A stretch of 64,000 bases of DNA from Polytrichum commune (Eukaryota > Streptophyta > Polytrichopsida > Polytrichales > Polytrichaceae): contig OX485807.1 of assembly GCA_950295325.1 (NCBI GenBank), positions 2,296,501 through 2,360,500 on the forward strand. Reading direction: 5' to 3'. This document shows positions 40,432 to 62,862 of this stretch, piece after piece. The translations under genes were made by a program, and so were the position numbers. Under the pieces are notes generated by a model. It was not told the origin of the DNA. It worked only from the letters and a program-made list of their open reading frames with translations, and ran no database searches. Each line of letters starts with the position of its first letter. Positions within the stretch are counted from its first letter, which is position 1.

Positions 40432-41251
40432 TTTACGAACGATCGTTCGTTAGCTACAGCCGAAATTGAGGGCTTATGCACACAAACGATCGTTCGTAAG
40501 TTCCAGCCGAAACTTAGGGGCGGATGCATACGACCGATCATATGTATGTTACAGCCGTGACAGTGTTTGGCAAAAATGATTGGACACGTCCGAATAGAGA
40601 TATCTATAGCCACGTTACAGGGATACATGAAATCCAATATCCAGTGGAAAATGGCAATCGACATCTATCACTAAAATAATGATTGCATAGATACGAACGA
40701 GCGTTCGTATCTATCCTAAACATGGTGTAGTCCTCTACACATGCTTGTGTCAACAGGTCTGTTGGTGGATGCGTGGACGGTGGACCGGTGGTATTTACGA
40801 ACGTACGTTCGTAAATTTGGAAAACCTAATTCTTAGTAGACACAAATGGTAGTGCGAAATATGAATGCCCGTTCGTATTTAACTTCCATATTGTTAACGT
40901 GGCCAATGCAAGGAAGTGTATAAATTAAGGGATGTTTATGGATTCTTGAAAAATTATCCCAGTTGATATTTACGAACGTACTTTCGTAAATATCCCATCA
41001 TTAGATGTTCCGTTGGAGAAAACGGTTACATGGGAACTTATGCGCGTCTGGGTCTTGAAGGCAGATATACGAACGTACGTTCGTATATCTTCGACACAAT
41101 TTTTGCGCCTAGTTCTGTCTATAAGTAACTCAATGTCGAGTACGGTTGTGATCAACTTACGAACGCACGTTCGTAAACAACTCACATCACATGTATGTAC
41201 CTTTTGTACATGTGCTACCAACTCACGTTTACGAACGTGCATTCGTAAACG
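40432..41251. repeat. Palindrome family A, cluster 1
   Basis: About eight good and three degenerate copies of TTACGAACGNNCGTTCGTAA in 0.8 kb: near 40432, 40483, 40527 (poor), 40691, 40793, 40860 (poor), 40967, 41063 (28 bp, perfect), 41155 and 41226. The central NN varies (AT, AG, TA, AC, TG), whereas the CG-flanked arms are conserved. It lies upstream of the DUF7869-like gene (minus) and downstream of the MULE gene. Confidence 0.9.
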
Positions 41252-41309
41252 TCCGGTATTTGCGGCGGTATATACGGGTATGTGCAGTCTGTAGGAGGGA
41301 AGCTATCTT

Positions 41310-41395
41310 ATGAGCGATGAGCAGTGAGCGGTGAGCGGTGAGCAGTGAGCAGTAACACATGAGCAATGAGCAATAACATATGAGCAATGATTCCA
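41310..41395. repeat. GAGCAGTGAGC-type minisatellite
   Basis: Short degenerate repeats of GAGCRRTGAGC and GAGCAATGAGC. Confidence 0.8.
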
Positions 41396-41529
41396 AATTT
41401 AGTAAAGACACACGGGTTTAGGGTACACAACCAAAATTTTGACAAATTAATTGCATATTTTCAATTGTAAATTGCCAATATTTTAAATGAAGCACAAGTG
41501 AAAGGGCCCTATTTCCATGGATCATTTAA

Positions 41530-41765
41530 AACACTTTCAATTCATTGCTGATTTTTATTATAATAATCCAAACCAATACATGTCATTTATTGACATCCTT
41601 ATACATGTAGTTACAACCAACACTTGCACAACTACTCACATTCCACAACACCAGCAAGTTCAAGTAGGTGCATAACCTCATTATACGTACATGTAGGTGC
41701 CATAATTGTGAGCCACTCAAACTGCTCACGGGTTGAATTAAGGCCCAGAATCTAGAAATGAAAGG
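41530..41765 (-). pseudogene. Duplicate of the MULE gene's last coding segment
   Basis: The minus strand reads APTCTYNEVMHLLELAGVVE and then the stop, matching the end of the MULE gene at 42208 (APTYTYNEVMRLLELAGIVE). The 3' flank (AATCCAAACCAA.. block) is duplicated too. A partial tandem duplication about 560 bp downstream of the original. Confidence 0.8.
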
Positions 41766-41811
41766 AAATTAGATATTAGAAATAGTCAATATGTAGGTAA
41801 CTACTAGGTTT

Positions 41812-42005
41812 TGAGACATCCGCCTGTGGATGCGAGTTGTGTAAGAGACTGGTATTAGGTCTGTATCAACCCGGGTTCGAATCCGGTTGGTTACATTGAC
41901 TCGTGCTATCCCAAATTGAGCTAGTGATAAAGCTGGAATAATCTATAGGCGGATACCAAGAAGACGTTAGTACGCGGATGTGCGTAGAATCTTCTCAATT
42001 ATTTT
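41812..42005 (+). mobile_element. Probable tRNA-derived SINE
   Basis: Contains a perfect B-box-like GGGTTCGAATCCGG near 41872 in a short unit between two duplicated 3' segments of the MULE gene. The A box is less certain. Ends with a T-rich tract near 42005. Target duplication not resolved. Confidence 0.5.
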
Positions 42006-42207
42006 TTATTTTTAGAAATTTGTTATTATTTATCCATGTCAATCAATCAAACCGCTCACGGTTGGGTCGTAGTCTAAATAGAAATGAAGTTACTGAATCA
42101 TTTGAAATACTTCCAGCCCATTGCAGATTTTTATTATAAAAATCCAAACCAAAACATGTCATATTTTGACATTCAAATATATGGTACTTAATAGACCATT
42201 TGCAATA

Positions 42208-45200
42208 CTACTCACACTCTACAATACCAGCAAGTTCAAGTAGTCGCATGACCTCGTTATAGGTATATGTAGGTGCATGAATGAACTTGTCACTCTCGTA
42301 ATCCACCTTGCACAAAAATCTAAACACATAATAAAGATGTTTACAATACACCCATTTTCATTTCTTTCCCAATGCATGGGAGGACATTTTCGTGAAATCC
42401 AGGCATGTGCAATGCGGGATGTCGCCAATTGTGACATGATATATGATATCATGCTTGGAGACAATGTTGATTATCACTCCAAAGCCCGGATATGGAATGG
42501 CAGTGACCCCAACCACATAGTAACCCTCCATGAGTCCGGCACTCTCCCATTTGTTTTTGTGATCCGGTAGCGGTGCTGTTGGATTACGACGCACTGTCTT
42601 CCCAAACCTGAATGTAGGGTGGGCATCCGGGTTTCGTGGCATAGAAAAATGCGAGCGAGGGATGGGGAGAATTACAATTGTTGAAAGCCTACGACGAGGG
42701 GACAATGCCTCCCTCTGCTGTAGTTGAAATCCAACATCTTCAAGTGCCAAAACATCCTCTCTCAATAGATTGGTGCCTATCTTCACCGGCCACGTGTTGG
42801 GTACTATAGGCCAGTCCAACACATATTTCTTCTTACTGCCACTCACACAACGCTTGATGTCGTCAGGGCAAAACCAAAATTCATACTCCACATTGTTGGG
42901 AGATCGAAATTCCTTCCTGAGCCCTTTGTATGTTGGGGCAGGTGTGCCATGTTTCCCAGTCCCGATTTTAGCATTGCACATAGTCCCTGTAATGGCCTGC
43001 AGTGCCCAACATCGTTTGGCTGAGTTGGGTGGTAATCTTGCAATGTGCCAATTGGAAGCAAGATAATCAGTCTCTAACACGGATGTAGTATGAGCCACAC
43101 CATGAATTGCAGAACTCAACGATTCCTCTATGCGTTGACGAGTTGCTCGGGTGTTGGGACGAGGAATGGAATAGTTTACTTTGTCGAGTCGATGAGAGTC
43201 ACAATCAGCACCTGGTGGTAGGTTGAGTTTGCGTTTGGTGGAACCAAAGAGTTCTGACCCTTCCAATCCACAATTTCTAGTGTTGACGTCTTCTGCCCCT
43301 GGGTAAGACTTCATGGCATCAGCCAACATTTTTAGATCTCCACACCTGGCAGTTGCTTTGAGTTTCAAGGAGGCCGAATCAGGACCTTTACCATCAGACC
43401 CCCCTTTCAACCATGTCCAGTAATTTGCAATTTGCATGAAGGCACGGATCATGTTCTCCACTGTAGCTTCATATAAACAAGTCATCTTGTTGCCGGACTG
43501 TTGGAGCCATTTGTTGTGTACAGTCTCTGCAAGGTTGCATGTTGGCATTTCCGAACGCTCTTCTATTGTTATATCCTATGAACAACACACAAATACAAGG
43601 ATAAGACAAATATAAGATAGATTACATATCTAGGTTTGGGTCGTTCGACCCAAACTGCATACAAGGTTTGGGTCGAACGACCCAAACTGTTTGTTGTTTG
43701 TTGTGTACAGTCTCTGCAAGGTTGCATGTTGGCATTCCCGCACGCTCTTCTATTGTCATATCCTATGAACAACACAGAAAGACAAAGATAAGAAAAACAT
43801 AAGATATATTACATTGAATAATGAAGTTTGATATGTACTTACAAGTAGCATATAGCCACCCCATTGTTTGTAAAGAAAGTGCCAAAATCCCAACCACTCT
43901 GAAAGGCCAAGGATGCCTTCTTCGGAGGCAGCTCCAAATGACAACCACCAAGAACGAATCACATGGTACTTGGTCTCAGCGTCGTCCATTGTTTTCGCGT
44001 CTTTGTAATCCTTGTATATTTGTTTGTGTTGAAATTGCAAGGATGGTTTGATATACTTTTGGGTCACCTTATCCAAGCCTGCGGACCAATGGAAAAGACA
44101 TGTACGCTCACATGCAACCATGGGTAGACTTGGATCACCATCCCCGTAAATCGCCCTTACCGCATTCCAATTAGCTTGAGCACTATCAGCCATAAACCCT
44201 TTGAAGTTTACGTTTGGTACACCATTTTCTGCCATGACAGCATTCAAATTATCCCAAAAGAGAATTTGTGCTGCACCATCTTCAAATTGCATGTCACAGC
44301 ACACAATAGTCAACACTTTACAGTATCGACTGTCGTACACATGGCAAGCCATGGTCGTCCAGTCCTTCAAACGTTTGACATGGTCAAACATAATCCATGA
44401 ATTCTCCATATCCCCACCGACTTGCATCCTCTTCACAAGCTCCACACCACTACCTAGAAGGTCTACAGACATCTTGAAAACAAACACTTTGTCCTTTGAC
44501 TGCCCTGGGAACCAACTACCATGGACGAATTTGAAAGCAGAGTGGTCTTTGAGCGCCATAATACTATCCATAGTTCCCATTTCACTACGCAAAAAATACT
44601 TTGATCCAGATACAAAGTTACGACAATTTGGAGACGCAAGAGTGCTGAATTTGTCCATGACGACCTCTAGGGATGAACCAACCAAGTGATGGCCTTCGAC
44701 ATTTGCGGGAGATTTGAGAAGGTAATCGGCCAAGAATTGTTTGCTCGCCGCCATAACTATGGCTGAATTTTTTGCTGTGGGTGTTTTCAATACTTCATTT
44801 GCAACGCATTGGTATGCCATGTCCAATGATTCACGGCATGTGCCATTGGCCACATGGTGATCATGTACACCAAGATGAATGCAAGCCCTGGACATTCCAA
44901 CGGATGTGGAGTGAATGTATATGATTCGAGCATTACACAAAGCAATGCACACAGGTGTGGAACGACATACCTTACACTCGACAGTGGACTTAGTAGGGGG
45001 AACAACACCCACAGCAAATGGGATAGGAGTTGAACCGGCCCATTCAGTGTTGTTCCGGAGGCCCCCATTGCGATTTATGTAATCACAGTAGTCATTATGA
45101 CATTGGAGATGACCAGCACAAGTAGAGCGCCGGAAGGACAGTCCAAAGTCATTTTGGATATTCGTGGTTTTGGTGGTGCACCAAGGGTGACCGTCACACA

Positions 45201-45978
45201 TCTTGTCCAAGCCGTCCATTGAGCGACCATACGTACTTGGAGCTTTGAGTGCCACAGGAGGCAAGAGAAACAAAACATCACCATTAAAAGAAGATGGTAA
45301 GTACTTGACTTCACGAACATCTATACTGTCAAAATCAATGGATGCAAGATCGGACTTTGATCTTTTTCTTGATTTTGTCAGCTTCAAGGCATCAACCATA
45401 ATCAACCCTGTAGATGAAAGTGAAGGGTGTAGTGGAGGACGTTGAGAAGGTGAGATTTGGGGAACCACCTTCTTGTACATAAGACCGCAAGGGGATTTGG
45501 CTACATGTATAGGAAGTTGGGAAGGAGTAGAATGAACACTTCTAAATGGAAATGGCGATGTGTTTGAAAGATCAACAGATGCACAAATGTCATCTTTTGA
45601 ATCTGATAGCACAAACACACTATCATCAAGGGGTTCCACCTTAACAGGTGCGATAGAGGGAAGTTGAACTGTGGATGTACCGGATTCGTTTGTCAAAATG
45701 ACAGTTCAAGCTTGCATCTGAGACTCAGAAAGTCCTATCACCCTAAATGAACCAGGTCCTAAGATCCACATAAAACCAACATCAGTTCTATTTTTTGGAA
45801 CCAAAATCGTTTCATACACCTCTCCATCTGCAGAGTACATCTCATGCTCTAAATACATGGTTCCTATCTGGAGGTTGAATATCAAACTAAATAAATCCTT
45901 TGAAACACTCACATGACCATCACCTTGGAGTGGCAAGATGAAGGGAACAAAAGATCCATGAGCTCTAATGGTAGCCAT
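42208..45978 (-). pseudogene. MULE-type transposase gene with SWIM zinc finger
   Basis: ATG at 45978 (MATIRAHGSF), exon 1 to 43843, one intron, exon 2 from 43575 to the stop at 42208. The central part of exon 1 (FKGFMADSAQANWNAVRAIYG, here followed by MVACERTCLFHW) fits the MULE DDE transposase region with its Asp and a C..H motif. Exon 2 ends with CTCLDF and then VYCKHLYYVF, a CxC..CxH SWIM finger. Two in-frame TGA codons, at 45706-45708 and at 42358-42360 just before the C-x-H, interrupt an otherwise open frame. The intron holds two family B palindromes. Probably a recently silenced transposase. Confidence 0.75.
43497..43842. repeat. Duplicated exon-intron junction with two family B palindromes
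   Basis: The start of MULE exon 2 plus its upstream intron sequence is present twice (acceptors at 43575 and 43762, 187 bp apart). Between them lie two copies of TTGGGTCGNNCGACCCAA (43633-43656 with TT centre, 43665-43688 with AA centre). Confidence 0.85.
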
Positions 45979-46500
45979 AGAAAATCAAAAGAACATATGA
46001 ACAACACATCACAAAAATATGGGGTGAATATTGCTTTTGTATAGAATTGTGTGAAGAAATGAATGGAAATGAAAACGTGTGATACAATAATGGATGGAGA
46101 TGAAAGCGTGTGATATATAACATCTAATAATACAGAAGTGGACATAACACAATAATAGTTAGAGAATATTTACGAGCAAGATATACACAAAATGACATCA
46201 AATACTAAAAGTGTTGGTAGAAATTTAAAATATATATGTGTGGACTGACGTAGATGTAGAAAGAATTAAAATTGGTTGGAAAAATAAATTATTGATCATT
46301 ATGAATAGAACAAAATAGGTGTCACAAAATTTTGGCGGATATAACAAAAATAAACACATAATGACAAACGCGTCGAAATATCTCGTTCATTGAACGCCAA
46401 TTACAACATGTGATCGTAATATACGCCGGATTTTGTGAGATAGATACATTGGAAGAATAAATCATAGTACCTGATAGAAAACATATCATAGACACCAACG

Positions 46501-46780
46501 ATGGTGGACGATGTAGAGAGAACACCCGTGAGGCCGAAGAGAAGACGTACGAAAGCTTTGTATTTCACTTCCGAGAAAAAGAGGTTCAGACGTGTGAAAA
46601 AGAATAATGCAAATAAGGAAGGGAAAAGAGACTTGTTGAATACGGTAGAAGAAACTGTGAAGACACTGGATTTTGATGCGATGGAGGATGATGAAGGTGC
46701 AAAGAGCAAAGAAGATGTAGACTATCGTATATCAAAATCCGAATTGAAGACGGGTTCAAAGAAGACGACAAACAAAAAGG
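46501..46780 (+). CDS. Putative first exon of a basic nuclear protein
   Basis: Starts ATG, encodes about 93 residues with a basic cluster (RPKRRR, then KKRFRRVKK) typical of nuclear localisation, and an acidic stretch (DAMEDDEGAKSKEDVD). It ends at a strong donor (AAAAAG|GTAAGT). Divergent from the MULE gene, about 520 bp apart, so a shared promoter region is possible. The next exon is not identified; it may belong to the DGNHR gene that starts 1.7 kb downstream. Confidence 0.4.
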
Positions 46781-47030
46781 TAAGTCAGTTCAACGTTCAC
46801 ATAATTTGATAGTGCATAAGTTGTAAGTTAGGACGGAGAACCTTATACGTTCACTCACATGTCATGTAGTAGCAATTTATAGAAGTTATAAATTGGAGAG
46901 AAGAAACCCTATACGTTAATGCACAACAGCACATGGTATATAACATAAATTTAGGAAGGCTAGAAGTCAGGAGGAGAACGCACAAGGTTTATAAGAGCAA
47001 CTTAGGGAGGCCAAAAGTTGGGAGCTAAAA

Positions 47031-47119
47031 CCCTGTGCGTTAACGCATAGGGTTTGTAAGCGCAACTTAGGAAGGCCAAAGTTGGGAGGTAAAACCTTGT
47101 GCGTTAACGCACAAGGTTT
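47031..47119. repeat. Palindrome family C, first pair
   Basis: CCTGTGCGTTAACGCA.. at 47031-47052 and a perfect 28 bp palindrome centred on GTTAAC at 47092-47119 (CTTGTGCGTTAACGCACAAG core). They lie in repeated ~55 bp units (GCAACTTAGGAAGGCCAAA) that run from about 46.97 to 47.17 kb; earlier decayed versions are at 46.84-46.95 kb. Confidence 0.85.
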
Positions 47120-47576
47120 GTAAGAGCAACTTAGGAAGGCCAAAAGTTGGGAGGTAAAACGATTAGGAAAGCCTAAAAGTAAAACAAATATCTATTGTAT
47201 GAATTTAAATCGATATTCAGAGCGTAGGAGCAAAAAAACTATTCAAAACGGGGTTAGAATGCACGAAATGAGAAATATGTCTACTCAAGTATTCATGCAA
47301 TACGTTATAGGAGCTAGAAAATGACACAAAATAGCATAATTTTTTTTTTGCCCCAAAACCCAAAATCTACGAGGTGGCCGAAAACAAGGAAATAGATAGA
47401 AGAATGAAAAAAGAAAATGATTTCAAACCAAAACAAAATATGAGAAGAATTTGTAGCTACGGAGATTTTGATAATATAGCATTTTTTATTTTTTTTTGGG
47501 ACCCCATTAGCATTTTTCCAGATTTTATAAGTTTTGGCAAATCTACCAATTCCATGTTTTCAAATTCATGTCTCGG

Positions 47577-47659
47577 CCCTGTGCGTTAACGCACAGTGGC
47601 CTCAAAGTTGCCAGCGCAGACCCTGTGCGTTAACGTACAGGGTCTACGCTGGCAACTTT
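47577..47659. repeat. Palindrome family C, 56 bp near-perfect inverted repeat
   Basis: One copy at 47577-47598, then 47604-47659 forms arms of 28 bp with two mismatches, centred on GTTAAC and extended outward by AAAGTTGCCAGCG and its complement. It could form a long hairpin. Confidence 0.9.
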
Positions 47660-47879
47660 CTAGCGGCTATGCGGGGCCACGAAGAGCCACGCTAAATATG
47701 GCTCCAGGAACGAGTAGTATAAATTGCCACACCCCCAAAGCATTCAGTCTTTTTTTCTCTCATCTGTCGGACCTGAGATCATCGCTGCAAGCTCTCTCAT
47801 CTACATGTGCAGTACAAGGTTTGTTTGCATTTTCGTGATGACAGGGTAATTGCGCATAATCAGGCGTAAATTACGGACA

Positions 47880-48226
47880 GTTTAGGTCGTTCGACCCAAA
47901 CTGTGAGCGTGGTTTGGGTCGTTCGACCCAAACTGTTTGCCTACTTTGGGTCGAACGACCCAAACTATGAACATGGTTTGGGTCGAACGACCCAAACTGT
48001 CTGCCTCGTTTGGGTCATTCGACCCAAACTGTGAGCATGGTTTGGGTCGCTCGACCCAGACTGTCTGCCTAGTTTGGATCGAACGACCCAAACCACGCTC
48101 ACAGTTTGGGTCGTTCGACCCAAACCACACGCAGAAAGTTTGGGTCGTTCGACCCAAGCTGGCTGTAGGCGGTTTGGGTCGCTCGATCGAAACCGCGTGG
48201 ACAGTTTGGGTCGTTTGACCCAAACC
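47880..48226. repeat. Palindrome family B array: 11 regularly spaced copies
   Basis: Eleven copies of TTGGGTCGNNCGACCCAA start at about 47880, 47911, 47942, 47974, 48006, 48038, 48070, 48103, 48137, 48170 and 48203, i.e. every 31-34 bp. The spacers alternate between two types (GTGAGCRTGG and GTYTGCCTAS), giving a 62-63 bp higher-order unit. From the seventh copy on they include the reverse complement (CCACGCTCAC), so the array turns around midway. It lies immediately upstream of the DGNHR gene. Confidence 0.92.
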
Positions 48227-48262
48227 TCTCGCCCAACTTTGGTAGTCCTGTAGTCGGACACA

Positions 48263-48292
48263 CAGACCCTGTGCGTTAACGCACAGGGTCTG
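48263..48292. repeat. Palindrome family C, perfect 30 bp copy
   Basis: CCTGTGCGTTAACGCACAGG core extended to 30 bp of perfect self-complementarity, between the family B array and the DGNHR gene start. Confidence 0.92.
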
Positions 48293-48460
48293 CCCTTGTA
48301 GTTTGGGGTGAGCGGCCACCCTAATCGTACAATATTTAAAGGTGCAAATGGCAGTGTCTAGAATAATTTTTGTCATTCTTCTCTGTGTTCGTGGTATTCT
48401 GTTGTTATTGTTGTTGCTGTTGCTATTGCTATTGCTATTTCTACTGATGATGATTCTACA

Positions 48461-50014
48461 ATGCAATTAAATCAAGATCGTCCATCTCAACAAGTTCATC
48501 ATCATCAGGACATGTCGTCAAATCTTCATAATAAGAAAAAAATAAAAATAAATGAATCCCTCGATGATTTTGACTCGGATGAAGATAATGATGGTGACAA
48601 TAAAACTTATCAAGAGAAAGTGTGGGAGTTTACGAACAAACGAAAGGTCAATTCCACTTCCACAATTTCCTCCATCCGTACTGGACCTAATGCTCGCTTG
48701 CGTGTACCCTTATGTCACATGGTTCCTATGCCGATTGTGCGTCCTGCTTTGAAGGGTAACATTACTAAATTGGAGGCTGATTTTTTAAATGGTTATCGTG
48801 ATGGTGACCGTGTGTTTTATATATCGGCCACCGATTCTAAGGGAAACTTTCAATTCGTGGATGATGAGGTTCGCGCATCTTGGAGCCCAAATTGGGCTCA
48901 AGCCAATGCCCTGTTTGAATCTCAATTGGATACAGATTTGTCATTGACGTCATACAAGAACAAGATGTTTTTTATATGGGATGGAAATCATAGATTTTTT
49001 GCTTGGAGAAATTATATTAACTGCGTATATACCGAAGATTATGAACGTCATGTCTTTGTAGATTCTATCATTTTGGCGCCCGAGTCTGACGACATTCCAA
49101 GTTTGTTGACTACTATGCATGACATCAACAAGTAATGTTCTTACCTATTTTTAGTTTATATTTTGTTTTCCAAATTATATCATCATGAATCTAATCAATT
49201 TAATATTTTTTTCAGGTCAACCGAAAATTCTCACGTATCCACCAATTTGGTGCATACTTTATATCGGATGCAAAGTATTGGCACCATGCCTTTGACTTCC
49301 TTCAGAAAGCAACTGGATCCAAAGAGTTATAAACGATGTGAAGAGAAGTCCGTCGAAACTTGGTATTCTTTTACACGACCAATTTTTTTGGATTACATGT
49401 ACAGTGTAAGTTCTTCTACCATTGCTAATATGTGCCTTTTGTTTATTCATCTTCATTTTATATTACATCTATATGTACTTATAAATATTGACTTTTGTTT
49501 GATTTTTCAGTAAGAACTTGCTGAGGCTAGTGATATTGCTCTCAACCAGTACAATGAAACTCATCCTCTTGAACGTATATCAGACGGAGTTTCAAAAGCA
49601 ATATCCGCAGCTGTCAACAAAAAACGTGCAATGTTATCTTCTAGTTTTACGAAACAACTAGCGATTGCCGACATCAACCTTACCTCTGCTTTCCCTGAAC
49701 AAGTTAAGCACCATTGGGGTTCATTTTCGGTGCCTGAAATGCTCCAAGGGAAACTTCATCATGTTGCTGTCAGTAATGTGGATGCAGAAATCAAAGTTGG
49801 ATGGCTCAAGCTTTGAAATGGCAACAGATTTGACAAAGATGTATTGCATTTCCCGAAATCGCCCCTCTCTGATTCTGCACTTGATGATTGGTTATCAAAG
49901 TCTACATATTGTATTCTTTCATCTCCTCTTCAGTTGCCTGTAGATGTGCCTACTCTCTCCGAGTATATCCAAACCTGGAAGTTTGCGGCTTTCAATTCAA
50001 TATTCTATCGTGAA
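48461..50014 (+). pseudogene. ParB-like DGNHR protein gene, truncated
   Basis: Exon 1 48461 to about 49133, exon 2 about 49217-49407 and exon 3 from 49511. Exon 1 has an acidic/basic leader, then IVRPALKGNITKLEADFLNGY and KMFFIWDGNHRFFAW, followed by VFVDSIIL. The D-G-N-H-R box after a hydrophobic strand resembles ParB/DGQHR-type domains (DNA partition and DndB-like proteins). This is motif-level only. Exon 3 opens with an in-frame TAA after the AG acceptor and has a TGA at 49814-49816. Reading then continues (NGNRFDKDVLHF, ALDDWLSK) to about 50014, where it runs into Ty3 RNase H. A damaged mobile-element gene whose upstream region is packed with palindromes. Confidence 0.55.
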
Positions 50015-51685
50015 TCTAATGTGGCAATAGGGAGTGCGCTTTGTCAAGCAACGGGAGAAAAAGAGAAGGATCAACCTATAGCTTATGCGAGTAAGCAATT
50101 GACCCCCGCCGAAAGAAACTACTCTACAACGGAGAGGGAGTGCCTAGCCATGGTGTTTTCCGTTAAAAAGTTTAGGCATTACCTCATGTGCAACCCGGTT
50201 GTATTTTTTGTTGACCACATGGCTATCAAGTATCTAATTAACAAGGCGGAGTTAAGTGGTAGGTTAGCTAGGTGGGTTTTGTTATTAGAAGAATTCGACT
50301 ACACGGTGGAATATAAACCGGGTCGTATGCATTTACAAGCGGACCACTTGTCTAGGTTGTCGGAGGAGATAGGAAAAAATCCGGTAAATGATATGTTAGT
50401 AGATGATAGCCTCTTTGTGGTCACTTCTACACCGGAGTGGTATGCGGGCATAGTGGAATTTCTAACAACCCACAAGTTGCCCAAAGAGTGGACAAAAGAA
50501 GAGAGAAGGAAGGTGAGGGTAAATAGTAGGCAATTTGTTGTAGTGGGCCATAGGTTGTTTAGAAGGGGGTCCGATGGTATTTTACGACGATGCGTGTCAA
50601 AAACGGAGGTTGAAGCGATTTTAATCGCTTGCCACGATAGCGCTTGCGGCGGTCACTTCTCGGGTCAACTCACCGGGCAAAAAATACTTAGAGCGGGCTA
50701 CTTTTGGCCTACACTATTTAAGGACGCCCATGACTATGTAAGGAAATGCGACGCTTGCCAACGGTATGCCCGAGACGACCTTAGAATGGAGATGCCTTTA
50801 CATGTATCATTACCCTTAATTCCTTTCGAAAAATGGGGCATCGACTATGTGGGTGAGGTCCATCCCCAATCTTCAAAAGGAATGAAATATATTGTGGTGG
50901 CAACCGAGTACCTCACCAAGTGGGCGGAAGCCAAAGCGGTGAAGACCGACACGGCGGAACACGCGGCAACATTTATGTACGAAAACATAATTTCGCGGTT
51001 CGGGGTGCCGAAGATCCTAGTAAGCGATAGGGGTACTCACTTTTTGAATGACTTGATTCGAGAGATGACAGAGAAATTTAAAATTGATCACCGGAAGACT
51101 ACTTCCTACCACCCACAAACCAATGGACAAACGGAAAGGGTTAACGGAATTTTGGTGAGTATACTACGCAAGACGGTTATAGACTCGAAGCGGGATTGGG
51201 ATACGAAACTAACGGCGGCACTTTGGGCATACCGTACAACCTATAAGGTAACTACGCGTGCTACACCATTTTCCTTAGTCTATGGTCTTGAAGCGACACT
51301 ACCAATCGAATATGAAGTCGAGTCACTTAGGGTGGCCGTGAGTACGAGACTTACCGAAAGTCAATCCTTACGAAATCGACTAACCGATTTGGAAGCACTT
51401 GACGAAGGGAGGAGAATGGCGGCTCAACATATTGAGGCAATCCAAAGAAGGAGAAAGATTACTTTCGACAAACGACATAAGAGAAGGGCCCTAACACCGG
51501 GAATGATGGTCATGATTCAAGACGCACGAAAGCTTGAATTTCCGGCGAAATTCAATGCGGTATGGTTAGGACCTTACCTTGTCTATGAGGTCTTTCCTAA
51601 TAATTCAATTCAATTGGAAACGTTGAATGGTGAGCTCTTTCCTACCCGTACATCGGGAAGTAGATGTAAGGAGTACCGAGCTTGA
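50015..51685 (+). CDS. Ty3/gypsy polyprotein, 5'-truncated: RNase H to integrase
   Basis: Open frame beginning inside RNase H just after its first catalytic Asp position (SNVAIGSALCQ), then YASKQLTPAERNYSTTE and VEYKPGRMHLQADHLSR. Next come the integrase zinc finger (ACHDSACGGHF and KCDACQRYA, HHCC) and the core with D, D, E in IDYVGEV, SDRGTHFLN and TNGQTERVNG; the last D and E are 35 residues apart (DD35E). The C-terminal end has LGPYLVYEVF. Gag, protease and RT are absent. The frame is fused without a stop to the tail of the DGNHR gene. The integrase residues look intact, but the element is not autonomous. Confidence 0.9.
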   Translation, partial: SNVAIGSALCQATGEKEKDQPIAYASKQLTPAERNYSTTERECLAMVFSVKKFRHYLMCNPVVFFVDHMAIKYLINKAELSGRLARWVLLLEEFDYTVEYKPGRMHLQADHLSRLSEEIGKNPVNDMLVDDSLFVVTSTPEWYAGIVEFLTTHKLPKEWTKEERRKVRVNSRQFVVVGHRLFRRGSDGILRRCVSKTEVEAILIACHDSACGGHFSGQLTGQKILRAGYFWPTLFKDAHDYVRKCDACQRYARDDLRMEMPLHVSLPLIPFEKWGIDYVGEVHPQSSKGMKYIVVATEYLTKWAEAKAVKTDTAEHAATFMYENIISRFGVPKILVSDRGTHFLNDLIREMTEKFKIDHRKTTSYHPQTNGQTERVNGILVSILRKTVIDSKRDWDTKLTAALWAYRTTYKVTTRATPFSLVYGLEATLPIEYEVESLRVAVSTRLTESQSLRNRLTDLEALDEGRRMAAQHIEAIQRRRKITFDKRHKRRALTPGMMVMIQDARKLEFPAKFNAVWLGPYLVYEVFPNNSIQLETLNGELFPTRTSGSRCKEYRA

Positions 51686-51746
51686 CTAGGCAACTTACCC
51701 TTGGAGCAAGAGATGTTTGGATTCATCCCCCGATGGTCGCCAATTA

Positions 51747-53621: not shown

Positions 53622-54996
53622 CGGTGGCAAAGTGCCAACAATGGATGCATCACTCAGTGTCCTATACAAGAGCATCACTCATCCCAAATGAGGATATTGT
53701 CTCAAACTTCAAATCGTCCTCAAGACATATCCACAGTGAAACAGAATCACAGGTCCCAAACTCATTACATCATCCAAAATCTCCAATGCCAGAACATCAA
53801 CAGGAGACCCCATCCCTCTTTGCCCTCTGTTTTCTTGGGTTCCGTCTTCTACAACTTTCTAACCTCACTACAATAAGTAGTCCTATTAAGTAGTGTGGAT
53901 TACCACATGTAATTATGCATTGTTATAATTTTTTAACAGAATCATCATTTATTACCAAGTTATAGTTTGCTCCTTTATGTGCATACAAAGTATTTATGTT
54001 GTGTGGTCAGAAAGTGATGATGTTAGTAAAACGTTACAACAATAAGCAACCAACACTAATAGGACATTCTAAGTGTATCTTCTCCCTGTTCATTCTCTAC
54101 TAAGTAGGTGCACCTATTTCGGTTTGTGATCCATTGTGCATACCGAAAAGCAAGGGTAAAAGTAGGTACAAAGCATATGATAAATGGTCAGGTTCTCCAA
54201 CTTGTGACATAAGTAGCATGTCATTGACTTATAAGAAACTCCAACAAGTTGGACCAACCCTTAAGAGTACCTCTAAGAGCCTTACATTAGGATGTAACAT
54301 GCACGCTTTGGCAGAGTCTTACATGCCGATGATATAGACGTTCCAGTGTGTACTCGAGTTAGATTGTAGTTGATCCCAGCAAAGTACACCTATCCAAGAG
54401 TCACTGAAGCAAGGATAAGTATCCCACCCACTTTCCCAGCCTGCTAAATTGATTTCGGGGTCTAGTGTACTGCCATTCCATGCTTTCCAAATATTGTGGA
54501 GTGCGTTCACTGTCATGGCCCCAACAGCCCACATTGAAACCATCAAAATGATCATGCACCACTCCATGTTAGTAATTGTCATGCTAGCCACAGTGAAGTA
54601 AGCGTGTGTATCAACATCCTGGTCCAAAGTAAACATGTGGTGCGCCCACACGATAAATCTAGTTGTTCCAACCCTTTATAGTCGCCAGAGATGACAAAGA
54701 AGTATACGACATCTTAAGCCCTATAGCTCACAAGTAATACCAGCAAGATCCAACCATACACTATCATGGTCCGAGTTGGTTTCCCCACATGTGGCTCGTC
54801 CATGGCAAAAAAAAATTCAACTTTTGCGGCTTCTTGCCGCATAAGTGCGATCGTGATAATCACCCCGCAGGAATATGCGTGCGCCCTTGACGGGCAACTA
54901 CAACCATTTACAGAGCCACATTTTCAATGACTTAATTAGCTAAGGACTCTCTTCCCTTTTTTGCTCACTTATGACTCAGAAGCAGCCAGGCCTCTA
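53622..54996. repeat. Segmental duplication, copy 2 (receptor kinase 5' end)
   Basis: Same orientation as 9561-10548. It begins abruptly inside LRR exon 2 ([13 protein letters not shown] equivalent). It retains about 390 bp (54566-54955) that copy 1 lacks. The left edge abuts unrelated retroelement-like sequence. Confidence 0.9.
54321..54582 (-). pseudogene. Orphan first exon of a receptor kinase copy
   Basis: Encodes [18 protein letters not shown] leader, then [19 protein letters not shown], and [13 protein letters not shown], the LRR N-cap. The start ATGs are intact, unlike the copy at 10.5 kb. Only a piece of exon 2 follows (near 53.64 kb), so this copy cannot make a receptor. It preserves what the full gene's 5' end looked like. 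Confidence 0.75.
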
Positions 54997-54999
54997 ACA

Positions 55000-55385
55000 C
55001 TATATTCGGTATTTGGAGACTTTTTGTTGATTATGAGACTATATAAGGATGCACCTTTCAAAATTGGACCAGTAATGACGACTAAAAATTCCATATGTAT
55101 AATGGTATGCTACTATTATTATACATAAAGGCATGGAAGTGAACAAAAATGTGAGGCATACATGAAAATAGTTGCGTATGAAATGACAACTCGTTATGAA
55201 TGGAAGGGAAGGTGCGAAGAATGAATGGAAGTTGAATGAATTAATTGGGATTGAAATACAATTATAATGGAAATACCATCAATGTCTTGAGTAACTTGGA
55301 ATAGCATAGAAAGTAAGCACTTAAATATGTTCTACACCTAAGCCCATTTAGGGAGTCCGTCCCACTAGTACGCTTCTAGACGTCA
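55000..55385. other. Intergenic, AT-rich
   Basis: No gene or repeat recognised between the kinase duplicate and the 3' end of the GC-rich gene. Confidence 0.4.
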
Positions 55386-55387
55386 CA

Positions 55388-56364
55388 CTAGTCCGACCCA
55401 TTATTTTTTTTTGCGGCTAAGCCCTTTTTTTTGGCGGCCTCCATGGCTCTAAAAATCTCAGGCCCACGACTGTATCCTTGTGTGTTGCCTGGACAGGAAT
55501 ATGTGTCGTTCTTGCATGTTTCAGGACGCGCTCCCGAATTGTAAGAGGTGGTATTATAAGTAGAATGCGAGGGTGTTTGCGAAAGGGAACGTCTTGCGCT
55601 TCTCCGGAGGGCCAGACAACGATCGGACTCGGAAGATGCGGCCTTGAGGGCGTGCCTATCCAAGGAGGACGTGGAGGAGGGCCGGGCACCAAGCGAGCGG
55701 GTAACCACCTGCGAAACAACGTCATAGGAAGATAAGAATAGGAATGGAGTGGGGAAAATAATGAGGGCGGTTTGGGATGGGCGCTCGTAAAGAGAACGGC
55801 ACGCAAACGGAAGACAAGGAAAGCAAAAGCGAGAAAGGGGTTCAGGGTTGAGGAGGGCACCTTGGCTTTGGGGACGTCCATGCGGGGAACGGTGGGAACG
55901 AGGGGGGCGTCGACGGGAGCATCCGGAGCCGATGGAACTATTGCAATTATGTTGGATGACGGGGGGGAGTCGAGGCGTGGAGGGCCCACGATCGCGGAGG
56001 ACGTTGCGGGGGGAGGAACGGAGTCGGCGGGGGAGGTGTGGCAACGGGGGCCTTCCATGCGGAGACGCCGGCTCGGCCCGCGACGAGCGACGGCGTCGTC
56101 CCTCGAGGGCGAGAGGTGTCCCAAACGAACGAGCGTCCGTTTCTCCTTGGAGAGGGGGGAGGGCGACGGGGCGTAGGCGCGGGCGACAAGTGGTGGGGGC
56201 GGGCTGTTGACGACGCCGTCGTCGATGCCGACGTCGCGGGAGTAATCCACGGCCGAGGCCGCGTCGACCGCCGAGAACTGGTAGAGGGATGGCAATTGGA
56301 AGCCCGTGACGTCGCGGGAAGGGGAGGCAGGGGGCGAGAGGGGACGGGAAGGGCCGTCGACCAT
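55388..56364 (-). CDS. Pro/Ser-rich uncharacterised protein, two exons
   Basis: ATG at 56364 (MVDGPSRPLSPP), exon 1 to 55861, intron 55860-55709 (GTGCCC..TTTCGCAG, T-rich), exon 2 from 55708 to the stop at 55388. The splice is phase 0 (MDVPKAK|VVTRSLG). The intron explains why two frames both look open. The protein is rich in Pro, Ser, Ala and Arg with a Lys-rich end (AKKKGLAAKKNN). No domain is recognised. A T-rich acceptor just upstream (near 56392) suggests a further 5' exon, so it may be the tail of the FCP1-like gene next door. The GC content is far above the flanks. Confidence 0.5.
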
Positions 56365-56499
56365 AGGGGCGTCGCATATGGGGGCAGACTATGGGCAAGA
56401 ACAACAACAACAACAATCACAACAACAAAAGACATCCAAAAACGAAGCAAGCATTAGTAAATGTGAACCACATGATACAAGCAAACACATGGAGGCATT

Positions 56500-57267
56500 T
56501 CAAATCAATTTATTGAGTTTGGCGAGCCTCATGATGCTCTTGAATACATTATCGCGGGGGCTTAGCGCCGCATTGCCGAAGGGGTTGGACCTAACAAAAA
56601 ATGGTATGCTACCGGCGTGGAGCACGAGCCTTCTAAGGTAGGGGGCTAGCCTATCGACCAAAAATGTGTCTTGCCTATCGCCGGTCCAAGTGTCCGGGAA
56701 GATGACGTTGCCCGGGGGGTTCAAGACGCTCTTGGTGGGGCTGTCGTCGATGAGGACGGTGTTCTCTGGAGTCGGCCACCACCCGTGCGGCGTCCCTTGC
56801 AGACGGGGGACGCCTCGCCAGAGTCTCGAGCGGAGGACCTTGAGGAACTGTTGTCCTCCGCCCCGACCGCCAAACTTGGGCACCGGTTGACCTTTCTCGT
56901 CGAGCAGCTCGTCGCAGTCCTCTTGGCCGAGGACGAGGCAAGGGCTCGGGAGATCGCGGAACAAGAAGTGCACGATGGGCTCGGTGTTCTCCATGACCAT
57001 GGAGCTCCACATAATGACGTGAGCGAACTCGACCACCTCGCGAAGGAAGTCACGCAAGCCGGGACGGGCGCGGACAGCCTTGCGGTTAATGAGGGTGTCG
57101 AGCTCGCCGTCGTAGTCCCTTTCGTCGGGGTGACGGAAGGGACGCGTGGGGACCCTTGGGATGTGTTGGGTGTGACACAACACCCCGTTGAGGTCAAAAA
57201 CGATGAAAGGTTTGTTCCGGGTGGGAGGTCCACTGGTAGAGGGGTTGCGACCAATCTCCGGGGGGTC
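56500..57267 (-). CDS. FCP1/HAD-type phosphatase-like domain gene
   Basis: An exon opening at an AG acceptor (CATCACAG, exon from 57267) reads PFIVFDLNGVLCHTQ, the HAD motif I region of FCP1/TIM50-like phosphatases. VIMWSSMVMENTEPIV follows, then GWWPTPENTVLIDDSP with GNVIFPDTW, matching the later FCP1 motifs (I-D-D-S-P). The second acidic residue of DxDxT is replaced by Asn (D-L-N), as in some plant HAD-like families, so activity is uncertain. The 5' exon(s) lie upstream of 57267, where family A palindromes cluster. Known relatives act on phosphoproteins such as the RNA polymerase II CTD; the substrate here is unknown. Confidence 0.75.
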   Translation of the reverse strand, partial: DPPEIGRNPSTSGPPTRNKPFIVFDLNGVLCHTQHIPRVPTRPFRHPDERDYDGELDTLINRKAVRARPGLRDFLREVVEFAHVIMWSSMVMENTEPIVHFLFRDLPSPCLVLGQEDCDELLDEKGQPVPKFGGRGGGQQFLKVLRSRLWRGVPRLQGTPHGWWPTPENTVLIDDSPTKSVLNPPGNVIFPDTWTGDRQDTFLVDRLAPYLRRLVLHAGSIPFFVRSNPFGNAALSPRDNVFKSIMRLAKLNKLI

Positions 57268-57400
57268 CTGTGATGAACAACGCGACTAGTTTAATTCTAT
57301 GATCCAATAATGAAATTTTGCGTAGAAAATGAAGACGGTGCATTATGGGGAAAGACGAGGAAGTGAGGAGAGTGCAAGGAAAATGTGCTCAAGGGCACAC

Positions 57401-57556
57401 TTGCGAACGAGCGTTCGTGAATGAAGGCTGCGGGGGCGGTGCGCATCATTTACGAGCGCTCGTTCGTGAGCGCGGCTACACGTACATTAATGAGCGGTCA
57501 TTCGCGAATGAGGTGGACAGTGGGTCGCAGCCTTTCACGAACGAGCGTTCGCGAAT
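57401..57556. repeat. Palindrome family A, cluster 2
   Basis: Copies near 57401, 57449, 57489 (poor) and 57532, with variant arms (GCGAACG, ACGAGCG) compared with the consensus. It lies between the FCP1-like exon and the 3' end of the DGQHS gene. Confidence 0.85.
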
Positions 57557-57717
57557 GAGGTGGGTATGCAAGAATGAACATAATCTCATCAACATATACA
57601 ACATACGAGAAGGGGTCGAGGGCAGAGAATTTGAAGCAACGCGATGCAGATAACATAGGCTCATATATTAATCCGTTGAATATTTACATTTCTCACGTGA
57701 TAGTCTATCACATTTTC

Positions 57718-60700
57718 CTAAGGCAAAATGATGCCGTGTCCTACAAAACTGTTCGGCCCTAAGGGGGACCGCTGAAGAGGGCTCTCGCAAGGCCACTGGA
57801 TGTCGATGAAGAGAAAAACATCGCGATGTTAGAGAGGTTACGAACGCGCGTTCGTAAAAAAATGGTATTCTCAGAGGAGAGTTACCTCGTCATCGGGGGG
57901 AGGGGTAGCGGCGCTGGACCGAGCAGCAGGTCCCTCCTCAACGATTAACGAACGCGCGTTCGTAACCTCCACAGCTGCAGCCGCCTCTGTCTCCATGGCC
58001 TCTGCCTCACGCTCCGGTTGAGAGGCCTGTGTCGCCTGGATGCGCAGCGCGTCTTCTTCCTCGGCGCCCAGGTCGAGCGCGTCCATCCTGACATCCTCCA
58101 TCTACGCCGCATGGGTTTCTTCCACGTCCATCCCATGCACCCCTGGTGCGTCATTGGGGCTCCCCTGCGTGTCCTCCACAATGACCATGTCAGTGTGTCG
58201 CGCAGAGTCATCGCCATGTCTGTCTACTACCCTGGGGACGACGGTGAAAGACGATGCATCGGTGTATGAGGGCAGTCCTACCCTTGAAGGGGGAGGGGTG
58301 AGGACTGGAGGACCTGAAGATTCACGAACGCGCGTTCGTAAATCCTCGTCCTCCTGGATGGCCGCCGCCACAGCATCGTGGGAGGTGGTCGAGGGAACCT
58401 CTGGTGGCGGAGGAGTGCCAACAGGCGTGGGGTGGGGCGCCTGCTGGCGGGAAGGCCCTCCGGTGAACATGCCCGGTGGAGGGGATTGGGAGGGGTATCC
58501 TCCAGTGAAGGGGTAGGCCGGCTGGGGGGGCGCCGAGAAGCTCTGCATACGCTGGAGCATGGCGAGGATGGCGTCCGTCTTCTCGTTCGACTGCCTCAGC
58601 TCCTCCTGAATTGCGAACATTTTCTTGGCATTCTCCTCTGCCGCCTTCGCCATGTCCTCCTTCATCTTTTGCTCGAGCTTGGCGTTAAGCTCGGCGACGG
58701 ACAACGCCTCCTCTTTGACCCTCTTGTTTTTGTCAAAGTCTACCCCCAGCTCGACCATGATCTCCATGTCGCCCTCGTCCTCATCGGAGACCTCGATGAT
58801 TGCCCCCGGAGGCAGCTCCACGTAGGGGGTCTTCTTCATCCTCCGCCTCGTGTTGCGGTAGTGGTCCAACGTCGGTTGGGACCGTTGGTCCAGAAGGTCG
58901 AGGTTCTCCATCTTGGGAACCACGATCGGCCTGGGCGACACGGATGTTGAGCATCCCCCGGGAGTGCCGAATGCCTCTGCTCCAGACGTTCTCGCGGGGA
59001 GGACATCTTGGGTTGTCCCCGCCGACGACCCCGTGTATCCACCCGGAGTCCCTTGCACGTCGGATGGATTTCCCGACGGCGCCAAAATGCGGAGAGGAGT
59101 GACGTCCAAGGATCGGAGGATCGCCTCGACGTTGTAGGAGGGCGCGGGCTCGTCGTCGTCCGTCTCCATGGCGGGCATGCCTTCGTCGACGGGCATGTTG
59201 ATGTCCGTCCTCGGGAGGGACATGTCCTCCAGGTCCATCGTGGAGGCCTTCGCCCTGTGCACGTGGAAGTCCTCCTCGTCGATGGCTTCAATGAAGCTGT
59301 TGACGACCAGCCCCAGCATCTGAGATTCAAGCAAATACGTTAGAAAATACGAACGTGCGTTCGTAAACATCAACGACGAGAAACAATGTCATCAAACCCA
59401 AGACAAGTTGAGGTGAACTTTACGAACGAGCGTTCGTAAATATTAGTTGGAGAGCTTACCATCGCAGCGTACATGAACTTGCTGCCGCCACAAACGTTGT
59501 ACACGGTCTCTCCGCTTATTGCCACGCTCTGCAAAACGGAGACGTAGAACTCCAACCTGAGTTCCATCGCCGGGAAGACAGTGTACAAGGTCTCCTGCAG
59601 CAGATCCTTGGGAGGGGGATGGGGGATGTTGTAGATCTTCTTGAACGTAGTGTTCGCCTTGACAGGGGCTCGCCCATTCCGCAGCGCGTTGTACGTCAAG
59701 AAGACGAGGCTGACCGCCCCCACCTGTTTGTTCCCCCTGGCCTCGTTGATGGCCACGATCCCTTCCGTCTTGGCGGGCACGTAAGTGCTGTGGAAGATGC
59801 TGTACTCAAATTTGATCGACTTCTCGTACAGGTCGACTACAGCAGAGAGCTTCTCCTGCTCGACTATCCACAGCCAAACGTGAGGCTCCCTCATGTCCGG
59901 AGACTTGTGCTCCTTGAACTTGGCCATGAAGGGGTCGTAGAAAGGTATGTCCTTCCCCCCCTGCCTCGACGCACCGGGGATCCCCCTGAAATCGATCAGG
60001 GCAAATGGGCACCCCCGTCGATCCTCCCTCACCTCGGCCCTGCTCATGGTCCGGTCCCACTTGGAAAATGTCACCCTCTCCACTCCTTTTGTCAACAGAC
60101 AAAATCTGGCCACTCCTTCGAATGTGGCCAACCTCTTCCGCGTCAAAAAGCTTCTGTATTGCTCCACCTCCTGGGGATCCGTCTCGGTTTTCTTTGTCCT
60201 CTTGTTCCCCTTCTGCTTCAAAATGGAGGCGTGCTCCTTGACAAGACAACGCATTGAGGGTCCGGAGATGTTGTAGTCGACCTTGAACATCTTCCAGCTG
60301 GCCCAATTAATGTCCCCGTCGGCTAGGATGAGTGCGTACTCTGGTATTAGGGCGCTCAACTCCCTCATTGCAGCAGTCTTCAGCTTGCGGTGTTCGCACC
60401 ATTCCTTGATGGAATACGTGCCGGGCTTGTGTCTTGGCCTCTTCAAAAATATCTTCGGGTATGGGATGGTTCTTCCCACAGTGTTCCCAAGAAGATGCAC
60501 CGCGCACCTCTGCAACTCGGACTCTGTTAACCCTTGAAGGGACCTGAAGAACTCCCTCAGTAGTGGAGGGGCCTCCCCGGTCTTCTCCGCGCTGTACTTC
60601 TCCTCGGTGTCGGGGTTGACCAGATCGCCCGAGCTGTGCGCATCAAAAAATTGTGTCCACAACTCCCAAGTGTCCCTGTTGCAACAGATGAGGCGGAGCT

Positions 60701-62202
60701 CACCCTTGAGCTCCAGGACAGACTTGGTTGTTGTAGACTTCATGTCGATGGAGGAGAACTTGTCCACCATCGCGTCGCAGAATGCCTGCAGCAAGAAAAA
60801 CATCAGTAACGCACAAAATACGAACGCACGTTCGTAAGTTTGAATGTCAAAGAACTTGAAAATTTGAATGTCAAAGATATTTACGAACGTTCGTTCGTAA
60901 ACTCACCTTCCATTGTGGAGACGGCGTCTTCGCGTTCTCCCTTTCTTTAGGGGGGCACCCGTGGGCGACCCAGACGTCCCTTGCAGCCACTATGTTGGCT
61001 GCCCACGACGCCTCGAAGGCCTTGATTTTGTTGCCGGAGTTGAGGAAGGTGGATATCTTCCGCAGCTTGTCCCAATCGTCCGACCACACCAAGAACGCCT
61101 TCCAGTAGCGCAAGTCCTCCTTCAGCTCATGCTGGAAGTTGTCGTCCTTGAGAATTATTTGGGACGCCTCCAAGCTGTGTTGGCCGTCTATGATCCAGAA
61201 CTCTCCATTCTGGATCCGTGGCCAGTCCTTCTCCGTCGGACGGGATGTCAGCCCCTTCGGCATGACGCAGACGGTCTGCCTGTCCCACTTGACGTTGTTC
61301 ATTAGATTATTTATCTGCCACTTCACACCACCGCTTTCGCGAGAGCGAACCACCCATTTGTTGGGGGACATCTCGCACTTGAAGCAGTCCACGTTGAATG
61401 TGAAGTGGCGTCCCATGGGCCAGCAATCCTTCGAGTAGTTGTTGAAGTCTCGAAGGATCCTCGTGGCCTTCACAGCGTCAGGGTTCTCACCCTTTTTCAA
61501 GGGGGTGGGCATTACGACAGGCGAGGTCACCTCTGCGGTCTCCGTTACTCCCGATTTCTCCATCTCCTCCCTTGTCCTCTTCGATGGCGTGGAGTGTCTA
61601 CTGGGGCCCTCCGTCGCCCTGCTAGCGGAAGGCACAGGCCTGGGTGCACTTCTAGATCCTCCTGCCCCTGATGTGGATGGTTTCCTGGGGCTCTTCTTCT
61701 TCTTGTTTGCCTCAGTGACCACACTGTTGTATTTGGAGATGTTCAATGCCAGGGCGTTCAATTTCCTTGCAGTCCAGTATGGGCTCAACGCATATTTGGA
61801 GAAGAGGCCGTCCAGGTCGAAGTGCTTGGCATCTTCCGCTACGTTATTGGTGGCGTATTGGTAGGAGAAGGTATTTTTCTGAAAATGTAACAAGAGGTTG
61901 ATATGATCCTTCTTGTTCTTCATGTCCAGAATTACATACTCCCCCTGGGCCTCTATGGACTCTATCTCCCACGTCTTCATTTGAACCCACTGTTCGGGCT
62001 GGTCCGGTCTTGTCTCCAGCTCGTAGGTGAAGCGCATGCAGAAGAGGCCGTCCCCGATCTTCTCTGGCAGTGCCGTCCACTCCCCCATGAAGTCTTCCTT
62101 GGGGACATAGTTGTCGTTGCCGTTATCGTCTAACACCGACTCTGGGAGGCCATCGACCTTCACCGCGAACATCTCAATGGCGCTTCTGCTTGATCTTGCC
62201 AT
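57718..62202 (-). CDS. ParB-like DGQHS protein gene, four exons, 1,377 codons
   Basis: Exons 62202-60907, 60785-59460, 59319-57886 and 57795-57718, all with GT..AG introns in phase 0 (121, 140 and 90 bp). Exon 1 begins MARSSRSAIEMF and has a Ser/Pro/Lys linker and then FWIIDGQHSLEA, a D-G-Q-H-S box after a hydrophobic strand, like the D-G-N-H-R box of the gene at 48.5 kb and resembling ParB/DGQHR domains. Exon 2 is 442 codons of unknown fold. Exon 3 has an acidic region and a charged coiled coil (ELNAKLEQKMKEDMAKAAEE). An in-frame TAG at 58102-58104 interrupts exon 3 near its end. An AG acceptor directly before the ATG implies a 5' UTR intron. Every intron contains family A palindromes. Confidence 0.6.
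57796..57885 (-). other. Intron 3 of the DGQHS gene, with one family A palindrome
   Basis: 90 bp GTAACT..ATCCAG intron. The palindrome TTACGAACGCGCGTTCGTAA is at 57838-57857. Confidence 0.7.
57945..58343. repeat. Two family A palindromes inside coding exon 3
   Basis: 57945-57966 and 58321-58343. Both are read through in frame, giving VTNARSLIV and DLRTRVRES. They differ from the intronic copies only at the outer arm bases. Confidence 0.85.
59320..59459 (-). other. Intron 2 of the DGQHS gene, with two family A palindromes
   Basis: 140 bp GTAAGC..CTCAG intron. Palindromes at 59419-59440 and 59347-59366. Confidence 0.75.
60786..60906 (-). other. Intron 1 of the DGQHS gene, with two family A palindromes
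   Basis: 121 bp GTGAGT..GCTGCAG intron. Palindromes at 60880-60901, starting right after the donor, and at 60819-60838. Confidence 0.8.
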
Positions 62203-62230
62203 CTGCAACAGAATATAAACAATTAGTGAC

Positions 62231-62862
62231 TTTACGAACGAACGTTCGTAAGTGACATGCATATCCCACAGACTACGCAGTGTTAATGCGTCTTTGCAAT
62301 TGATGTAATTATATTTACGAACGTTCGCTCGTAAATGAGGGGTTGCAAGATCATATAAATTTTTAGTATTGAGTTTACGAACGAGCGTTCGTAAAAGATA
62401 TGAAGATCAAAGAGACTACTCGTCATGAATGTGTTTGTAATATATTTGGTTATTTTTACGAACGATCGTTCGTAAAAGATATAGGTTTTATAGGTTTGGA
62501 TTCATTTACGAACGTGCGTTCGTAAGTATGTCCATTTGGTCTATCTTTTCGGATATTTGGTTGATTTATCTTTCGTAAGTACATGTGATTTGTCTTATTG
62601 GTGTTCGCAAAATTGTATTTGTTCTTTAGATATTCATAGAGGTTCATATTTAAGTTAAGGTTCTTTCTGAGTGATATTTTGAGTATATTTACGAACGTGC
62701 GTTCGTAAATATAGATCATCTCAAAGAACGTGGAGTGCGTATTTACGAACGCACGTTCGTAAATGGAGGTTCGGTATGCAGTGTATGTCCATTTACGAAC
62801 GAGCGTTCGTAAATGGAGGTGGGTATGCAGTGTATGTCCATTTACGAACGAGCGTTCGTATA
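62231..62862. repeat. Palindrome family A, cluster 3 (upstream of DGQHS gene)
   Basis: Nine copies: near 62231, 62313, 62373, 62453, 62505, 62685, 62741, 62791 and 62840. Most are perfect over 20 bp or more, and 62685-62712 spans 28 bp. The last two sit in a 50 bp tandem duplication (GGAGGT..GGTATGCAGTGTATGTCC). They cover the likely promoter and 5' UTR intron of the DGQHS gene. Confidence 0.92.

Follow-up and report, generated by a model that had tools for sequence, protein, structure and literature searches.

Family A, a palindrome with a variable two-base centre, is present in 28 copies in a 64,000-nucleotide stretch of the Polytrichum commune genome (assembly GCA_950295325.1, contig OX485807.1, positions 2,296,501 to 2,360,500; hereafter the window, numbered from its first letter). 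We moderately favour the interpretation that these palindromes are a transposon's own recognition sites, carried in non-coding DNA and read as DNA by a protein that the element encodes, likeliest the product of a ParB/methyltransferase-like gene at 57.7-62.2 kb. Among relatives of this gene each protein clade has its own palindrome class, suggesting that site and protein diverge together. The evidence is drawn from sequence comparison and predicted structures.

Conservation and distribution of the family A palindrome

The family A consensus, TTACGAACGNNCGTTCGTAA, occurs 28 times at ≤3 mismatches across the 64-kb window, all copies lying within 40287-62861 and 12 of the 28 being exact, compared with a mean of 0.02 and a maximum of 1 in 100 dinucleotide shuffles of the window. 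The initial annotation, which had noted some 25-30 dispersed copies and proposed a genome-wide comparison with dinucleotide-shuffled controls, is upheld within the window (28 versus 0.02), with one copy (40287) lying just ahead of the start it had given at 40432. Clusters at 40.29-41.25, 57.40-57.55 and 62.23-62.86 kb, with single copies between, are also as it had described. The centre is occupied by nine dinucleotides over the 28 copies (AG 7, CG 4, TG 4, AT 3, TA 3, CA 3, TT 2, CT 1, AA 1), in keeping with the free spacer that had been claimed, and the conserved arms are evident in the inner seven bases, ACGAACG, which are present in 51-54 of 54 half-sites (27 copies, 62842, a member of a tandem pair, being left out).

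Sequences surrounding the palindromes are unrelated, again as anticipated. Mean flank identity over 378 copy pairs is 0.293, and random places taken from the regions concerned give 0.289; 3 of the 378 pairs exceed the control's 99% point. Local tandem duplications are seen at 40438-40557 and 62741-62864. A motif-free scan for palindromes with a 2-bp spacer (arms ≥8, ≥4 G/C) detected 33 in the window, where five block shuffles averaged 0.4; most of the 33 were palindromes belonging to family A or to a second family, B (GTTTGGGTCGNNCGACCCAAAC). Exact family A matches number four in 257 Gb of prokaryote genomes, where ∼3.7 are expected for 18 fixed bases, and four in viral contigs, each being the sole copy at ≤4 mismatches within its stretch.

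Twenty-six of the 28 copies lie in non-coding DNA. Nine are in the 5′ flank of a DUF7869 gene, three in the 5′ flank of an open reading frame (ORF) for an NLI-interacting-factor-like (NIF) phosphatase, nine in the 5′ flank or leader of the ParB/methyltransferase-like gene, five in its predicted introns and two in its exon 3. The 5′ flanks, which thus hold 21 of the 28, carry copies up to ∼660 bp before the ATG, and all three genes are on the minus strand. Flanking copies start at 40287, 40433, 40480, 40691, 40795, 40970, 41067, 41157 and 41229 for the DUF7869 gene (40287..41248), at 57401, 57450 and 57535 for the NIF ORF (57401..57554) and at 62232, 62315, 62375, 62456, 62506, 62689, 62743, 62793 and 62842 for the ParB/methyltransferase-like gene (62232..62861).

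Structure of the ParB/methyltransferase-like gene

The gene is divided into three exons on the minus strand by predicted splice sites, read by eye from the sequence. Exon 1 (60907..62202), delineated from its ORF, the splice sites, a structure model and fold matches, encodes a PH-like N-domain (weak match) followed by a ParB/Srx-fold domain with a DGQHS motif; the fold matches of the predicted model identify the ParB/Srx N-domain fold. Exon 2 (59460..60785) encodes a helical part and an amino-methyltransferase-fold domain with an apparently lost catalytic motif, the predicted model matching the N6A/N4C amino-methyltransferase fold. Exon 3 (57886..59319) supplies the end of the methyltransferase-like domain, placed by eye, and a low-complexity C-terminal region. 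The two domain types lie in one gene, exons 1 and 2 being joined by a predicted intron, and in the relative P0002 the reading continues from exon 1 into exon 2. As modelled, the gene product joins a ParB/Srx-fold domain to an N6A/N4C-methyltransferase-fold domain. An in-frame TAG in exon 3 (58102-58104) is either a real stop or the mark of a disabled copy.

N6A/N4C DNA methyltransferases are characterised by a catalytic motif, DPP[YFW], and by motif I. The place of DPP[YFW], located by eye at the end of the matching strand, reads D-F-R in 37, 37 and 36 of 37 exon-2 rows, respectively, and in motif I, also placed by eye, K replaces the last G in 35 of the 37. The methyltransferase catalytic motif therefore looks lost, as judged from these alignments. 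In ParB/Noc CTPase clamps the arginine of GxxR is the residue that binds cytidine triphosphate (CTP); at this place, assigned by eye, the family has S in 53, T in 1 and N in 1 of 55 rows. A Pfam search returned no methyltransferase match for the protein, and no match of the type of VANC, the anti-silencing protein of VANDAL elements, whose Pfam domain we take to be DUF1985, was obtained at E ≤ 1 in 15 exon-1 relatives or 37 exon-2 rows.

Seven copies of palindrome A lie within this gene. Two (60818 and 60881; 60818..60900) are in predicted intron 1 (60786-60906), two (59347 and 59420; 59347..59439) in predicted intron 2 (59320-59459) and one (57838..57857) in predicted intron 3 (57796-57885, its borders placed by eye). 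On the gene strand, the first copy of intron 1 begins at intron nucleotide (nt) 7, directly behind GTGAGT. The exon 3 copies are at 58322..58341, in the coding part and read as ..DLRTRVRE.., and at 57946..57965, in the open frame downstream of the in-frame TAG.

Palindrome class follows protein clade

Relatives of exon 1 were collected from metagenomes in two sets of 38 and 48 proteins, 77 different in total. The predicted proteins often continue past the 5′ splice site and take in sequence of intron 1, and palindrome class was called, in three frames, from the peptide encoded by this read-through. Three classes of half-site are distinguished, A (TTACGAACG), C (TTTACGGACG) and B (GTTTGGGTCG), each surrounding CG-NN-CG. 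Class A peptides (TNxRS, YERxFV, and RTxVR, the last being common to A and C) occur in close relatives, 70-96% identical to exon 1. At 42-46% identity the tails contain TDxRP, YGRxSV or LRPRGRK, frames of TTTACGGACG or TTACGCCCG arms (classes C and C′), and at 32-37% the peptides are V-W/S-x-x-RPK, FGSxDPN or GRSTQT, as read from class B arms of the GTTTGGGTCG type, and sometimes occur three times in a single tail (P0055, P0061). No relative's tail mixes classes.

A tree was built from exon parts only, with 55 rows after 23 fragmentary or truncated proteins were left out; 12 rows, including the window, are class A, 21 class B, 7 class C, 15 have no class and 0 are mixed. Classes A, B and C each occupy one side of one branch, that is, each is monophyletic, and 0 of 500 label shuffles scored as low. 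The class patterns match 5 of 10,800 shuffled flanks, a figure to be read with the fact that the patterns were partly written after inspection of the tails. For this reason a replicate at exon 2 and intron 2 matters. Among 53 relatives of exon 2, tallied by hand, the 27 rows at 61-90% identity comprise 12 of class A, 6 that are A-or-C and 9 with nothing, the 25 rows at 45-60% comprise 8 of class C or C′, 2 that are A-or-C and 15 with nothing, and the single row at 38% is class B. Clashes between class and clade number 0.

The position of the palindrome within the intron is also inherited. Counting only rows with a palindrome peptide, assigned to clades by identity, intron 1 has its first palindrome beginning at nt 6-8 in clade A (11 of 12 rows), nt 17-21 in clade C (8 of 8) and nt 9-10 in clade B (15 of 21). 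In intron 2 the corresponding start is nt 17-23 for clade A (15 of 17 rows) and nt 35-49 for clade C (9 of 9). Eight of the 12 clade-A intron-1 tails contain a further copy, 48-64 nt beyond the first. Inherited intron places, unmixed tails and a clade-specific class are as expected of sites and a reader that co-diverge.

Combined, these sequence data indicate that palindrome class tracks protein clade at two introns. They also support sequence-specific selection on palindrome A, as its inner bases are near-invariant rather than merely paired, its flanks are unrelated and its class tracks the protein clade. The suggestion in the initial annotation that the palindrome reflects selection for a symmetric protein site or a hairpin, rather than drift, is strengthened accordingly. 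Its suspicion that the binder is the product of the 57.7-62.2 kb DGxH gene gains support from the ParB-like fold predicted for that product.

Proposed mechanism and alternative explanations

The proposed mechanism would begin with element DNA holding many near-identical palindromes, conserved as sequence and not merely as pairs. The ParB-like family uses palindromic sites, and the ParB/methyltransferase-like protein may bind those described here on DNA, as a dimer. Binding along 5′ flanks and introns would then relieve host silencing of the element, rather than methylate it, by analogy with VANC for VANDAL elements and with VirB, a ParB-family protein, for H-NS-silenced DNA. With four CpGs in each consensus palindrome, a bound protein could shield CpGs from methylation. 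The CpG observed/expected ratio (o/e) is 0.79-1.58 in 1-kb windows with family A copies and, once the palindromes are masked, 0.74-1.10 in the flanks, compared with 0.24-0.69 in the first 25 kb. The ratio drops sharply to 0.25 past 63 kb (63000-64000) and is low over 1-25000, mostly with an excess of TpG/CpA. Low CpG o/e with TpG/CpA excess points to CpG methylation decay outside younger elements. A more far-reaching form of the proposal is ParB-parS-like self-recognition in a eukaryotic transposon, in which a ParB/pseudo-methyltransferase would load at many clade-specific palindromes, spread over the element and prevent silencing, new palindrome classes arising with new protein clades and so insulating sister families; we consider this possible but rather doubtful.

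The CpG contrast has exceptions, however, the ratio also being near 1 in a Gypsy element of the window and 0.59 in the family B stretch at 43-44 kb. One of the main rival readings is that the palindromes act in RNA, as hairpins or by pairing of two copies in the same intron, drawing the intron ends together or producing small RNAs. In its favour, the two copies of intron 1 pair with each other in the predicted fold of that intron's RNA (-29.4 kcal/mol, z -1.96), 8 of 200 shuffles being as good. The location of the first clade-A copy directly behind the 5′ splice site fits such a role, as do outer arm positions 8-9, which match between left and right in 45 of 54 cases versus 40.7 when permuted (p 0.026; positions 10-14, p 0.093). 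However, the inner seven bases are near-invariant instead of co-varying, most copies (21 of 28) lie in the 5′ flanks, as far ahead of the ATG as noted above, and the offsets from the splice site vary between introns and clades, and we regard an RNA-level role as fairly unlikely. The binder may instead be another element protein, for example the DUF7869 protein, with dispersed sites, or a host factor such as a transcription factor driving element promoters; the DUF7869 gene has nine flanking copies and the NIF ORF has three. Another element protein remains the main rival as reader because all genes of one element share a history and would co-diverge with the motif. Copies in introns and exons are nevertheless atypical of promoter elements, clade-specific classes would not be expected if a host factor were the reader, and classes A and B coexist in one window next to different genes; a different binder is, overall, unlikely.

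Recognition by the ParB/methyltransferase-like protein is also to be set against explanations in which the palindromes move by themselves or are modified. Rickettsia palindromic elements are small mobile repeats, and tiny self-inserting repeats of this kind, riding in the transposon, would account for the unrelated flanks, for the two copies in the exon 3 open frame (58322 and 57946) and for the GTGAC found by eye on both sides of copy 62232, resembling a target duplication. No other copy has a clear duplication, judged by eye, and relatives whose proteins diverge by up to 30% retain the intron positions while class switches with clade, making this origin very improbable. Equally hard to credit is an active DNA methyltransferase that modifies the palindromes as a self mark. 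The predicted amino-methyltransferase fold and the suitability of palindromic sites for methyltransferases speak for it, and in PMC12477816 binding and epigenetic modification of the transposon by its own protein of this type is put forward as a suggestion; the D-F-R and motif I substitutions and the lack of a Pfam methyltransferase match speak against it.

Neighbouring genes and other elements in the window

The window appears eukaryotic, with interrupted genes, a Ty3/Gypsy-type pol at 49844-51685 (Pfam domains) and a CpG-poor background. The DUF7869 gene (37247..40280, minus strand) consists of ORF pieces 38496-40280, 37987-38574 and 37247-38080, with Pfam PF25273 matches at E 1.5e-23 and 1.2e-10, and probably has a transposase-type role. 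The NIF phosphatase ORF (56500..57183, minus strand) matches Pfam PF03031 at E 8.8e-13. We infer that these two and the ParB/methyltransferase-like gene belong to one transposable element broken by nested insertions, other elements being present between the palindrome A genes at 41.3-55 kb. No inverted repeat (14 bases, ≤2 mismatches) was found between 36600-37350 and 62850-63200, where other elements intervene.

Family B comprises 13 copies at ≤4 mismatches. Two (43634..43687) are located between ORFs 42358-43548 and 43756-45696, which are transposase-like by eye and have no Pfam match, and 11 form an array (47880..48225) upstream of a DGNHR ORF (48461-49135, plus strand), with a spacing of mostly 32 bp, or about three turns of the helix. 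Class B also appears where predicted proteins of distant relatives of the ParB/methyltransferase-like gene read into an intron. The DGNHR ORF carries the motif IWDGNHRFFAW and by eye is the opening exon of a gene that the Gypsy insertion has split; it has no detectable similarity to the DGQHS family. A third palindrome family, around TGTGCGTTAACGCACA, flanks the family B array on both sides (47033-48292), with five copies having CTGTGCGT arms at ≤2 mismatches, arms of up to 15 bp and a fixed centre, GTTAAC.

A direct repeat, 9561-10310 and 53622-54371, is 93-99% identical over copies about 44,061 bp apart and represents either long terminal repeats or two copies of one element. A GC-rich element at 25518-27569 (plus strand) has an ORF of 683 amino acids, and by eye a similar broken copy is inverted at 33563-36731 (minus strand); the element is probably young, since it has for the most part little TpG/CpA excess.

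Comparison with known systems

ParB-like/DNA-methyltransferase accessory proteins are described in algal transposons, exemplified by Sola1-1_Ec32 of Ectocarpus, in the part of PMC12477816 available, which cites further works for green and red algae. The window gene resembles that of Sola1-1_Ec32 in encoding a ParB-like domain together with one of the N4C/N6A methyltransferase type, and in belonging, presumably, to a eukaryotic transposon. It differs in that its catalytic motif looks lost, its neighbour is a DUF7869 gene and a clade-specific target motif is proposed, the passage of PMC12477816 concerned giving no target motif. A DNA-methyltransferase-type gene on a eukaryotic transposable element is likewise found in dinoflagellate and charophyte retrotransposons (PMC5890265), but those enzymes are C5 cytosine methyltransferases, and the portion of that paper available mentions neither a ParB-like domain nor a palindromic motif. 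The open full-text literature on ParB-type proteins and palindromic transposon motifs, as far as it was available (subscription papers being outside this scope), yielded no target motif for transposon ParB-type proteins.

A close parallel for the sites is VANDAL/VANC (PMC5735166, PMC10398659), in which short family-specific motifs, often repeated, lie in non-coding element DNA and diverge with the element's sequence-specific protein. VANC motifs are 8-9 bases, however, and the word palindrome is absent from the main texts of PMC5735166 and PMC10398659; the protein described here lacks a VANC-type Pfam match, and a VANC-like loss of methylation would be expected of it by analogy. VirB (PMC10653881) shares the ParB-type fold, a palindromic site and a gene on a mobile replicon, but is bacterial and binds CTP; unlike VirB, the window protein has Ser at the GxxR arginine and is fused to a methyltransferase-like domain.

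A ParB-N fold combined with multiple palindromic sites also characterises ParB-parS and KorB with its operators, whereas the window gene is eukaryotic with predicted introns and no partition role is expected. The ParB-methyltransferase protein class and the family-specific address motifs of VANDAL elements were thus already known, and what is new is the link between both. Candidate target motifs with matched protein clades make the suggestion in PMC12477816 directly testable by swap. If the link is true, VANC/VANDAL would be joined by a second and independent instance of transposons evolving private address tags, and the protein-site pairs A, B and C would form a natural series for how a ParB-type protein reads DNA.
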